Below, in pieces: positions 17,544-22,908 of a stretch of 64,000 bases of DNA. The stretch covers positions 310,001 to 374,000 of the forward strand of contig NZ_VUNH01000001.1 of NCBI RefSeq assembly GCF_009695745.1, read 5' to 3'. Within the stretch, counting starts at the first letter, position 1. Each line of letters starts with the position of its first letter. The notes beneath the pieces are model-generated. The model was given only the letters and a program-made list of their open reading frames with translations, made no database searches and had not been told where the DNA came from. This DNA is from Pyramidobacter porci (GTDB lineage: Bacteria; Synergistota; Synergistia; Synergistales; Dethiosulfovibrionaceae). The position numbers were made by a program, and so were the translations under genes.

Positions 17544-17597
17544 GATAGTATAAGACATTCAGGTATCTAGGCGCAAAAAGCCGAAGGAGATTTGTCG

Positions 17598-19931
17598 ATG
17601 AGCACATTTGACGTTGTCGTTGTCGGCGGCGGTCCGGCTGGAATGATGGCGGCGGCCCGCGCCGCTCAATACGGCGCCCGCACGGTTCTGCTCGAAAAGA
17701 ACCGCGAGCTGGGGCGCAAATTGATGATCACCGGCCGGGGACGCTGCAATTTTGCCCACGATCAGGAAGATCCGGAACTTTTATCGAAAGATTATCGCCG
17801 CGGCGGGGAATTTTTATTGCCGGCGCTTCGCACGTTCGGCGCCAAAGAAACCGCCGCGTTTTTTCTGCGCCGCGGCGTGGTGTCGACGCACGAACGCGGG
17901 CGTCGTCTCTATCCTCGCGAGGGGCAGGACGCCTCGTCGGTCGTCAACGCGCTGTGGACGGCGCTGAAGGACGGCGGCGTCCAGGTGCTGCGCGGAATAG
18001 AAGTTCGCTCTCTCGACATCCTCGGCGGCAAAGTCCGCCGCGTCACAACGGGACGCGAGGAGATCGAAGGGCGCGCCTTCATCCTCGCGACCGGAGGGCT
18101 TTCTTTTCCCCACACCGGCTCCACCGGCGACGGTTACCGCTGGGCCCGCAAGGCCGGGCACGAGATCGTCGAAACGACGCCGGCGCTGTGCCCGATCAAG
18201 ATCGCGGAACGCTTCGACGAGCAGCTGTCCGGCTTGAAGCTCAAAAACGTGCGCGTCACGGTTCGCCACAACGGTGAAACCGCGGACGAACGCTTCGGGG
18301 AAATGGACTTCACGCCGTTCGGCATTTCCGGCGCCATCGTCATGGACCTGGCCGCCAGCGTGGGAAACTGCCTGTGCAAGACGGGCCGCACAACCGTTCA
18401 TATCGACCTCAAACCGGCGCTCGAACCGGAACGTCTCGACGCCCGCATCGAACGCGATTTCCAGGAATTCGGCGGCGACGCGCTGCGTTTTGCGCTCAGA
18501 AAAATGCTGCCCGCCCAGATCATCCCCGAAACGCTCAAAACGGCCGCGCTCGACATGGGGAAACCCTGCGGCGAGACCACGGCCGAAGAGCGGCTCGCGC
18601 TCAGAAACACAATCAAGGATTTCGTCGTCACGCCCGTGGAGCTTCTGGGATTCAGACACGCCATCATCACCAGCGGCGGCGTGAGCACCGACGAGATCGA
18701 GCCGGAAACCATGGCCTCGAAGATCGTTCCCAACCTTTACTTCGCCGGCGAAATGATCGACGTCGACGGGCCGACCGGCGGCTACAACCTTCAGGAATGC
18801 TGGAGCACCGGCTTCGCCGCCGGGAGCGCGGCTGCCGAAGCGCTGGGATTCAAAAAGCCCACCGACGAGGACATCGTCAGGCAGATGGAAGCGGCGCGCA
18901 GCCGCAGATACGAGATCTCCCAAGCGGAGCGGCAGAAATTCAAGGAGGAGAAAACTGAAGACATGACGATCAAAACCGGCCCCACCGATGACAAAGAGTT
19001 CTGCGGCTGGAGAGATCCCCGCAGACGACAAACAGCCCAACAGGCGGAAGAAGGCGCAGGCAGAGGCGACAGTTCCGGTTTCAAAAAAGATCGTCGCCCC
19101 TCCTTCGAAGACCGGCACCGCGAGAGACGCCCTTTCCAGCGTCCGGACCGTCCCCGGGAGACGCGTCGGGAAGAGAGAGATTTTGGAGAGCGCCGGGATT
19201 CCGCCGGCCGGCCGCATTTTTCGGAAGAGCGCCGCTCCTTCCGCCGGGACGAAGACCGGCCGTTCGAAAACGATCGCGACGGTCAGCGGGCATTCCGCCG
19301 CAGCGACGGCCCTCGCGAAGAATACCGTCAGAGCTTCTACGGCAGAGGGCCCCGCGAGGAATTTTCGGAATCGCGCCGCTTTCGCGAAACGGCGCCCGAA
19401 GAAAGATCCCGCCGTTCGGAATGGCGTCCCTTCGACCGCCCCGGCTCCAGGGAACGCGACGAACTCCGCGCCTTCGAACAGCCGCGCGATCCGCGTCCGT
19501 TCCGAGAAAATTTCCGCGACAAAGATCCCGAATATCAGAGACGCTCCGACTCGCCTTCGCGGAATTGGCGTCCGGACGATCAGGAGCGGCGTCCCCGTTT
19601 CTCCGACGCTTCCAGACGCCCCTATGCGCCTGACGACAGGGAACGTCGCAGCTCTTACGAGCGAGGTTTCGGCGATGAACGAGTTCCGCACGCTGAGCGT
19701 TCGGAGCGCCCCGGCGACAACCGCCGGGGCCATACCGGCCGTGACTTTCACGCCGGACGGGACGCTCAGGAACGGCGGTTCCCCGGCAAACGGCGGTTCG
19801 ACGAAGACCGGCCCCGGGAAAGGGATTTTCACCACGAGAACAGGCCGCCCCGCAACGAGCCGCCCGTTTCCAAACCGCGTCCGCGAAAATTCGCCAGTTT
19901 TTCCCGCTTCAAAAAAGACCGCGAACGATAA
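17598..19931 (+). CDS. HI0933/BaiN-type flavoprotein with a long arginine-rich C-terminal tail
   Basis: Residues 1 to about 425 form a complete NAD(P)/FAD-dependent oxidoreductase of the HI0933 (YhiN/BaiN) family: dinucleotide-binding GGGPAG at 10-15, GRGRCNF at about 49-55, the ATGGLSFPHTGSTGDGY stretch, and C-terminal FAGEMIDVDGPTGGYNLQ. Family members are normally about 400-430 residues. Here the frame stays open for about 350 more residues, forming a low-complexity tail very rich in Arg with Asp, Glu, Phe and Pro (blocks such as DRPRETRREER and RPFRENFRDKDPE), ending RKFASFSRFKKDRER. Such tails usually bind RNA. A GGAGGAG 12 bases before an internal ATG at 18963 could allow separate expression of the tail. 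The start at 17598 has AAGGAG 8 bases upstream. First gene of a four-gene operon. Confidence 0.85.
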   Translation: MSTFDVVVVGGGPAGMMAAARAAQYGARTVLLEKNRELGRKLMITGRGRCNFAHDQEDPELLSKDYRRGGEFLLPALRTFGAKETAAFFLRRGVVSTHERGRRLYPREGQDASSVVNALWTALKDGGVQVLRGIEVRSLDILGGKVRRVTTGREEIEGRAFILATGGLSFPHTGSTGDGYRWARKAGHEIVETTPALCPIKIAERFDEQLSGLKLKNVRVTVRHNGETADERFGEMDFTPFGISGAIVMDLAASVGNCLCKTGRTTVHIDLKPALEPERLDARIERDFQEFGGDALRFALRKMLPAQIIPETLKTAALDMGKPCGETTAEERLALRNTIKDFVVTPVELLGFRHAIITSGGVSTDEIEPETMASKIVPNLYFAGEMIDVDGPTGGYNLQECWSTGFAAGSAAAEALGFKKPTDEDIVRQMEAARSRRYEISQAERQKFKEEKTEDMTIKTGPTDDKEFCGWRDPRRRQTAQQAEEGAGRGDSSGFKKDRRPSFEDRHRERRPFQRPDRPRETRREERDFGERRDSAGRPHFSEERRSFRRDEDRPFENDRDGQRAFRRSDGPREEYRQSFYGRGPREEFSESRRFRETAPEERSRRSEWRPFDRPGSRERDELRAFEQPRDPRPFRENFRDKDPEYQRRSDSPSRNWRPDDQERRPRFSDASRRPYAPDDRERRSSYERGFGDERVPHAERSERPGDNRRGHTGRDFHAGRDAQERRFPGKRRFDEDRPRERDFHHENRPPRNEPPVSKPRPRKFASFSRFKKDRER

Positions 19932-19978: not shown

Positions 19979-20974
19979 ATGCAGGAACAAATTGACAAAA
20001 GTGCCGTTGATCCCATCCCTGACGAAGAAACGTTTCGCCGGGCCCTCGCTCAGCTTGAAGCGTTCGGCAAGCAGATATTTCAGATCGCCGTACGCCAGAA
20101 AGATCTCCTGATCAACGAACAAGAACAGAGCGGGCGCGAGAGGTTTTTGCTCCGCAAGCGGCTTGACGAAAGGGAGAACGAACTGGAAGCGCTCCGAAAA
20201 AATCTTATGAACGCCCAGATGGAGCTTTCCGAAGCTCGCCGCAGCGAAGCCTCGCTGAAGCTCGAAATAAAACAGATCAGGGAACAGCTCTCCGTTTACC
20301 GCGTCGACGCCCGCCGCATTGAAGAAGCCGAAAGCCAGTTGCGCACCGCGAAAGAAGAAAACGCCCACCTTCGGACCCATATCGAAGAACTGAATATCGA
20401 AGCGGCCAAAGCCGCCCGCGCGCACAAAACGGAAATCGACGCTCTGACCTTGAAATACGAGCAGGAGAAAGTGACCCTGCGCGAAAACATTCAAATCGCG
20501 GAAGACCGTGCCCGCAGCGCCGCCGAGACCATCGCCCGGACTCAGTCCCTGGGCAGCATCGCCGAGCGCGAAAAAAACGCGGCGCTGGAAGATCTGGCGC
20601 GCTGCAAGCGCGAACAGAAGCAGCAGCTGGAAAAACTGCAGAACGATCTGGCCCGCCACGAAGCGGCCGCTTCCGAACAGGAGCGCCGCTTCGCCGACCA
20701 GCAGCGCGAGTACGAGCGCAAGCTGTCGCTGATCCAGCTGCAAACGGGGCAGCAATACCAGTCGCAGATGGAAGCCCTGAAAAGCGTCCTCGAGGACAAA
20801 ACGCACGAACTCAACCGCGCCCACTATCAGATCGAACAGCTCAACGACGATCACCGGCGCGCTCTCGAGGCGCTGAATCAGGATATGGAAAAGCAGCTTG
20901 AGATCCGTGCCGACGAAATCCGCCGCCGGTTTATTCTGAAATCCGCGGAAAAAAGCGGATCCCCGTCGCCATGA
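19979..20974 (+). CDS. Long coiled-coil protein, unknown function
   Basis: 331 residues with no recognisable enzymatic domain. After about 45 N-terminal residues almost the whole chain is a heptad-rich, Glu/Arg/Lys/Gln-rich coiled coil (about residues 50-320), without a signal peptide or membrane segment, so it is a cytoplasmic rod. AGGAAGG precedes the ATG. Its TGA overlaps the ATG of the ABC-F gene (ATGA at 20971-20974), so translation of the two is coupled. It might scaffold or bridge the products of the operon, but this is inference from position only. Confidence 0.8.
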   Translation: MQEQIDKSAVDPIPDEETFRRALAQLEAFGKQIFQIAVRQKDLLINEQEQSGRERFLLRKRLDERENELEALRKNLMNAQMELSEARRSEASLKLEIKQIREQLSVYRVDARRIEEAESQLRTAKEENAHLRTHIEELNIEAAKAARAHKTEIDALTLKYEQEKVTLRENIQIAEDRARSAAETIARTQSLGSIAEREKNAALEDLARCKREQKQQLEKLQNDLARHEAAASEQERRFADQQREYERKLSLIQLQTGQQYQSQMEALKSVLEDKTHELNRAHYQIEQLNDDHRRALEALNQDMEKQLEIRADEIRRRFILKSAEKSGSPSP

Positions 20975-22908
20975 TACAGATCAGGGATCTCAATCTGACC
21001 TTTGCCGGCGGGCGGAAAATTTTCGATAACCTGAACTGGCAGATCGACACCGGAAGCCGGACGGGGCTCGTCGGCCCCAACGGCATCGGCAAAACCACGC
21101 TGCTGCGCGCCATGGTCGGGCAAGTGAGCGCCGACAGCGGCGACATCAATCTCTCCCCTCTTTCCGCAACCGTCGGATACCTGCCCCAGGATCTGGCGGA
21201 GCTGCCCGACGTCACGCTGATGCAGTACCTCAAAGACCGTACCGGCATCACGGCGGCGGAAAAGAAACTCAAACGATGTTCCGAAGAACTCGCCGCCGCG
21301 CCCGCGAGCGAACATATCCGTCTGATGAAGCTGCACGATGAAGCGGCCGCCGCCTATGAGAACCTCGGCGGCTATTCTTTTGAGGCGCTGTCGCGCAAGG
21401 CACTGCGCGGACTGGGATTTCACGACGGCGACGACGCCAGACCCTGCGGAGAGTTCTCCGGCGGCTGGAAAATGCGCGTCACGCTGGCCGCGCTGCTGCT
21501 TTCGCGCCCCGACATCCTGCTCCTCGACGAACCGACCAACCACCTCGATACGGAAAGCATGGAATGGCTGGAAAACTGGCTTTCCGACTATCGCGGCACG
21601 CTCGTAGCCATTTCCCATGACCGCGTCTTCATGGACAAGATCATGAAATGCATCGCCGAGCTCCATTCCGGGAGGATCCGCATTTATAAGGGCAACTTCT
21701 CCGATTATCTGCGCGCCTCGGAAGAACAGAAAGCTCAGCTCGAGCAGGCCGCCGCCCGCCAAAAAGAGGAGATCGCCAGGACGAAAGAATTCATCGAACG
21801 CTTCCGCTACAAAGCCACAAAGGCCGCGCAGGTGCAAAGCCGCGTCAAGGCGCTTGAAAAGGTCCAGATCATCCGGACGGAGACGGCGGCCCGCCGCATA
21901 ACGCTGAAATTCCCGCCCTGCCCGCCCAGCGGACATATCGTTCTGACGCTGACCGATCTCGGCATGGCCTACGGAACGCACCGCGTCTTTGAGCGCCTCA
22001 ACGCGACCGTCGAACGCGGGCAGAAGATCGCCCTCGTCGGCGTGAACGGCGCCGGCAAATCCACGCTCTCGCGCCTCATTTCAGGCAAAGAGCGCCCCAC
22101 CTCCGGAAGCTGCGAAACGGGCTACCACGTGCTGCCCGCGTTCTTCTCGCAGGAGAGCGCCGAAAACCTGAACTACGACCGCACCGTCTGGCAGGAGATC
22201 TGCCCGCTCAACATGGAGATGTCCGAGGCGGACAAACGCGCCCTGCTGGGCTCGTTCCTGTTCAGCGGCGACGACATTTACAAGTCCGTCAAGGTGCTTT
22301 CCGGCGGCGAGAAGTCGCGCCTTTCCCTCGTCAAGATCCTCATGAACCCGTCGAACTTCCTGATCCTCGACGAACCGACCAACCACCTCGACATGACCAC
22401 GCGCGAGCTCTTTCAGCAGGCGCTGCTCGCCTACGACGGCACGCTGCTGATCGTCTCGCACGACCGCTATTTCCTGAACCAGCTCGCGCAGCGCGTTTGG
22501 GAACTGCGCGACGGGACCCTGCACGACTACGCCGGCAATTACAGCCGCTTTATCGAACAGCGCCAGGCGTCGCTCGCGCTCAACGTCCCGGCGGTTGATC
22601 CCGATCCGAAACGCCGCGGCGGCGAACGCGAAAAAAAACGCGAAGAAGCGCAGCGGCGCAACGAAATCTACCGCCGCAAAAAAGTTTACGCGGACGAACT
22701 CGCCGCGTTGGAAGGACGCATCGACGACCTGGAAAATCGCAAGGCGAAAGACGAACGAGAGCTTTGCCGGCCGGAAGTGCTGTCGGATTCCGTCGAAGTC
22801 CAGGCTCTCATGAAAGATCTCGCGGACGCCGGCACGGAGATCGAGGCCGCAACAAACCGCTGGGAAGAATTGATGAAAATCATCGAAAAAATCGAAAAGG
22901 GAGAATGA
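20971..22908 (+). CDS. ABC-F family ATPase
   Basis: A 645-residue soluble protein with two ATP-binding cassettes and no membrane domain, the layout of ABC-F ribosome-associated ATPases. Walker A motifs: GPNGIGKTT (35-43) and GVNGAGKST. Signatures: FSGGWKMR and LSGGEKSR. Walker B: LLLDEPTNHLD and LILDEPTNHLD. A basic helical linker between the cassettes (about 235-310) and a Lys/Arg/Glu-rich C-terminal coiled coil (about 545-645) match the P-site tRNA interaction motif and C-terminal extension of the Uup/YfmR-like group. Known members free stalled ribosomes or protect against antibiotics. It starts inside the stop of the coiled-coil gene, and its own stop overlaps the ribosome-binding region of the FKBP gene. 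Confidence 0.93.
   Translation: MIQIRDLNLTFAGGRKIFDNLNWQIDTGSRTGLVGPNGIGKTTLLRAMVGQVSADSGDINLSPLSATVGYLPQDLAELPDVTLMQYLKDRTGITAAEKKLKRCSEELAAAPASEHIRLMKLHDEAAAAYENLGGYSFEALSRKALRGLGFHDGDDARPCGEFSGGWKMRVTLAALLLSRPDILLLDEPTNHLDTESMEWLENWLSDYRGTLVAISHDRVFMDKIMKCIAELHSGRIRIYKGNFSDYLRASEEQKAQLEQAAARQKEEIARTKEFIERFRYKATKAAQVQSRVKALEKVQIIRTETAARRITLKFPPCPPSGHIVLTLTDLGMAYGTHRVFERLNATVERGQKIALVGVNGAGKSTLSRLISGKERPTSGSCETGYHVLPAFFSQESAENLNYDRTVWQEICPLNMEMSEADKRALLGSFLFSGDDIYKSVKVLSGGEKSRLSLVKILMNPSNFLILDEPTNHLDMTTRELFQQALLAYDGTLLIVSHDRYFLNQLAQRVWELRDGTLHDYAGNYSRFIEQRQASLALNVPAVDPDPKRRGGEREKKREEAQRRNEIYRRKKVYADELAALEGRIDDLENRKAKDERELCRPEVLSDSVEVQALMKDLADAGTEIEAATNRWEELMKIIEKIEKGE

Follow-up and report, generated by a model that had tools for sequence, protein, structure and literature searches.

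Pyramidobacter encodes a flavoprotein of a known enzyme family that continues, in one uninterrupted frame of 777 codons, into an arginine-rich C-terminal tail of some 300 residues. The gene was found in a window of 64,000 nucleotides from Pyramidobacter porci (assembly GCF_009695745.1, contig NZ_VUNH01000001.1, positions 310,001 to 374,000 of the forward strand), and its features are collected in Table 1. The tailed flavoprotein is genuine and specific to the genus: it elaborates a known enzyme and is not a new kind of system. The reading we favour, with somewhat more belief than doubt, is that this TIGR00275 flavoenzyme is an RdsA/YhiN-type dihydrouridine synthase acting on rRNA, to which Pyramidobacter has added a long, disordered, Arg-rich arm at the C-terminus for tethering to RNA or the ribosome. 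Pyramidobacter would then be a natural experiment, in which an rRNA-modifying-type flavoenzyme gained a long RNA-binding-like arm while its close relatives stayed short, and in which one can ask what disordered Arg-rich tails give an RNA-modifying enzyme. The tail offers a hint, too, that the TIGR00275 family works on RNA outside Proteobacteria.

Table 1. The tailed flavoprotein gene and its downstream neighbours, in window coordinates
Feature	Positions	Strand	Basis or remark
AAGGAG, ribosome-binding site for the flavoprotein	17584–17589	+	Sequence; 8 bases 5' of ATG 17598
CDS, 777 aa, flavoprotein and tail	17598–19931	+	ATG 17598, stop TAA 19929–19931; same frame open in 6/6 Pyramidobacter genomes
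Core, residues 1–415, TIGR00275 / HI0933-like three-domain flavoprotein	17598–18842	+	Profile matches; AlphaFold2 pLDDT mostly >90; Foldseek
Predicted helical linker, residues 423–453	18864–18956	+	AlphaFold2; variable, with greater length in the second Pyramidobacter clade
Possible internal start (weak), GGAGGAG and ATG 18963	18944–18965	+	12-base spacing
Conserved junction motif EDMTIKTGPTDDKEFCGWRDPRRR, residues 454–477	18957–19028	+	pN=0 among four species
Arg/Asp/Glu/Phe/Pro-rich tail, residues 478–777	19029–19928	+	Composition; pN/pS ~0.4; low pLDDT
Next gene, 331-aa coiled-coil protein	19979–20974	+	Syntenic in the family
ABC-F type ATPase	20971–22908	+	PF00005 twice, PF12848, PF16326; syntenic in the family

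The enzyme core is complete and of normal length, as the original prediction had held: it covers positions 1–400 of the 401 in the TIGR00275 profile, scores 393.5 bits against a curated cut-off of 183.8, and contains PF03486 and PF22780. The AlphaFold2 model of the core has the three-domain FAD fold, and its top Foldseek matches are 2i0z, 4cnj, 3v76 and 2gqf, with target-normalised TM-scores of 0.86–0.91. In a single comparison, residues 16–408 aligned colinearly with E. coli YhiN at 28% identity (E 4e-33); YhiN is reportedly the protein that Toubdji et al. described in 2024 as RdsA. The E. coli control genome contains a TIGR00275 member above the cut-off. Within Synergistota the flavoprotein family has a patchy distribution: of the 151 genomes in our phylum sample, 79 carry the core, and none was matched in the genomes listed for two of the sampled families (f4 and f9).

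Most homologues elsewhere in the phylum end near residue 410–440. Their open frames in the sample are mostly ~410–470 codons long, versus 786–844 in Pyramidobacter; a few others reach 480–630 codons, to which extension on the upstream side may contribute. The full-length tail is seen solely in Pyramidobacter within the sampled phylum, so the combination of enzyme and tail is as unusual for the family as had been supposed. A sister genus in the same family (G007) has a Lys/Arg-rich tail of ~110 residues, with DFAGWKGFR at the position of the Pyramidobacter EFCGWRDPR. In Dethiosulfovibrio-like genomes the enzyme ends near residue 418 and is followed by the coiled-coil and ABC-F genes; the interval between the enzyme and these conserved genes yielded no gene that matches the tail. 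We therefore rejected the idea that the tail is a separate neighbouring gene in relatives. The original prediction had reckoned with this and with a frameshift near the end of the core; what we find are short enzymes in the relatives, no matching separate tail gene beside them, and no frameshift at the junction within the genus. Because the sister genus is short-tailed and no neighbouring gene matches, the tail looks like the product of stepwise C-terminal growth rather than of fusion with a neighbour. The coiled-coil protein encoded between the flavoprotein and the ABC-F ATPase has no Pfam or NCBIfam match, and although its place in the gene order is kept in related genera, its identity there is just 25–31%. 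Many ABC-F members act on ribosomes.

The tail itself has the low-complexity Arg/Asp/Glu/Phe/Pro character first proposed for it. Its 302 residues past GWRDPR are 26.5% R, 9.9% D, 12.6% E (22.5% Asp and Glu together), 7.9% F and 9.9% P with a net charge of ~+20, an RNA-binding-like composition, whereas the core has 8.6% R and a net charge of 0. AlphaFold2 assigns low pLDDT to residues 454–504, where the model ends, and we judge the tail to be disordered, on the model up to that residue and on composition beyond it. A Pfam search matched the tail to no RNA-binding domain family, the window's tail has no internal repeats above those of shuffles, and no second copy of it was found in the same genome. 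It contains 0 RGG repeats, which mark some DEAD-box-type tails but not all.

Third codon positions are the most variable ones in the tail when genomes within the genus are compared, and the annotated frame is therefore the coding one. Among four close Pyramidobacter species, pN/pS is 0.09–0.15 in the core and 0.36–0.52 in the tail. The tail is coding sequence under purifying selection in the annotated frame. It could nonetheless be a weakly constrained extension, which arose by stop-codon loss and repeat expansion and is tolerated as disordered, with the junction motif as its only functional part. Its pN/pS of ~0.4, far laxer than the ~0.1 of the core, would fit such an origin, as would its differences in length between species and the tandem repeats seen in one clade. 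However, every genome of the genus, the divergent clade included, keeps the tail, and its composition is preserved despite sequence divergence. The original prediction had proposed length conservation among orthologues as a check, and the tail is present in 6/6 genomes, at 302–319 residues beyond GWRDPR in the four complete copies, all of which end in the nearly invariant C-terminus SKPRPRKFASFSRF. We consider it unlikely that the tail is such tolerated excess. The repeats lie in the second Pyramidobacter clade (L010:3019–3330), where the tail has 4.5 copies of a 69-base (23-aa) in-frame unit like FRPRRERDFDDRPRSRDDRPGGE; they are confined to this clade and absent in the window's species. Judging from these repeats, tandem duplication is how the tail lengthens in that clade.

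Constraint is strongest at the junction. The 24-residue motif (consensus EDMTI[KQ]TGPTDD[KR]EFCGWRDPR) has zero amino-acid changes among the four close genomes and is nearly invariant toward the second clade (pN/pS 0.07–0.16), while its flanks change strongly in that divergent clade. Searching 84,980 species genomes for EFCGWRDP returned Pyramidobacter and two further matches, one in a topoisomerase and one in a 40-aa frame, which we rejected as chance.

The original prediction treated the core simply as a redox enzyme and knew of none in this family with such a tail. The pairing is still unusual, but the family now includes RdsA of E. coli, which is reported to be the dihydrouridine synthase for D2449 of 23S rRNA, with the motif GADAA (PMC12501074). 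An RNA-binding tail is far less odd on an enzyme whose family member makes D2449, and since the core belongs to the RdsA family, the best reading of the tail is as an additional arm that binds RNA or the ribosome. The TIGR00275 score, the identity to YhiN, the 23S rRNA target, the selection on the tail, the tail of the genome's own helicase and the ABC-F gene two genes downstream all argue for this synthase with an arm. The target context of D2449, GGGGATAACAGGC, is present in the genome's own 23S rRNA gene, which is a weak test; the D2449 target site is near-universal. The core is predicted to bind FAD and to reduce the 23S rRNA uridine at the D2449 position, while numerous weak Arg–phosphate and Arg/Phe stacking contacts made by the arm would hold the enzyme on pre-50S particles or rRNA. 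Weak contacts of this kind are the proposed mode of tethering by the Arg-rich tails of DEAD-box helicases. The GPTDDxEFCGWRDPR motif may be where RNA or a partner protein makes a specific contact.

Several observations speak against an RdsA-type synthase with a tethering arm. The identity to YhiN reaches no more than 28%, and with the Streptococcus oligofermentans family member 4cnj described as an aminoacetone oxidase, the Pyramidobacter enzyme could have a different substrate. The tail carries a modest net charge (+20 over 300 aa), lacks RGG repeats and, as noted, matches no RNA-binding domain family. Relatives belonging to other genera do without the full tail. A more specialised role is conceivable but doubtful, in which motif and tail form a new, genus-specific targeting module that lets the enzyme reach extra RNA targets or an assembly particle of an earlier stage or another kind, and that may also be made as a free RNA-binding protein. 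The core might instead act on a small molecule and not on rRNA, with the tail driving a link to RNA degradation, condensate-like bodies or a partner protein. Condensate-forming tails have a mixed R/D/E/F/P composition like this one, and the characterisation of 4cnj as an aminoacetone oxidase points the same way. The substrate of the E. coli family member is rRNA, however, and our analysis identified no partner or degradosome component, which makes this alternative quite improbable in our view.

Separate production of the tail is a further question, raised by a GGAGGAG run that had been pointed out ahead of the internal ATG 18963. The run is present at 18944–18950, 12 bases 5' of the ATG, and internal initiation there would yield the tail as a second polypeptide beside the full-length protein. 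All six genomes have the Met with a GGAGG- or AGGAG-type run ~12 bases upstream, and the conserved motif begins two residues before the Met. However, the spacing exceeds that of most window frames with a Shine–Dalgarno-like site (by a rough heuristic, 13 of 15 at 2–9 bases, one at 10 and one at 14), the run is accounted for as part of Glu-Glu codons, and the preceding Glu-Asp, which a start codon would not need, is conserved too. An internal start therefore seems very unlikely.

The original prediction had rightly seen that all reading frames are fairly open here, and had allowed for a sequencing frameshift. ORFs of 335 and 713 aa lie in the +1 or antisense frame. Randomly back-translating the tail with local codon usage gave +1 and antisense openness equal to that observed, so the openness stems from the codon composition of the tail. 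Together with the codon-position rates, which favour the annotated frame, this led us to reject a gene in either alternative frame. In the genus, 2/6 copies end at contig ends, and full-length gene matches in three genomes have 86–88% identity. Open alternative frames are what could suggest a frameshift or two genes falsely fused, but with six separate assemblies sharing one identical open frame, that openness explained by composition, and syntenic short-enzyme relatives holding no tail-matching gene in the corresponding gap, we rule this artefact out with next to no reservation.

Among known systems, the closest is RdsA (YhiN) of E. coli, which shares NCBIfam TIGR00275 and a colinear core with the Pyramidobacter protein but has 400 aa and no tail; for Pyramidobacter, dihydrouridine activity is a prediction from sequence. 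The nearest solved structures by both sequence and fold, Bacillus cereus 2i0z and S. oligofermentans 4cnj, are also tailless, and the substrate described for 4cnj is a small amine. DEAD-box helicases of the CsdA/DbpA type likewise join an R/D/E/F-rich low-complexity tail to an RNA enzyme, although the Pyramidobacter flavoprotein has neither a helicase domain nor the DbpA RNA-binding domain. The genome's own DEAD-box helicase (L070, C1:45361–45852), which reads as DbpA-type, has a short Arg/Phe/Glu-rich C-terminus, RRERRFDRSGERLGKRNFERTSERRPRYGRDA, and the flavoprotein tail is ~10 times longer. The E. coli 23S rRNA pseudouridine synthase RluB also bears a basic low-complexity C-terminus on an rRNA-modifying enzyme, but on an unrelated fold and with a tail of ~35 residues.
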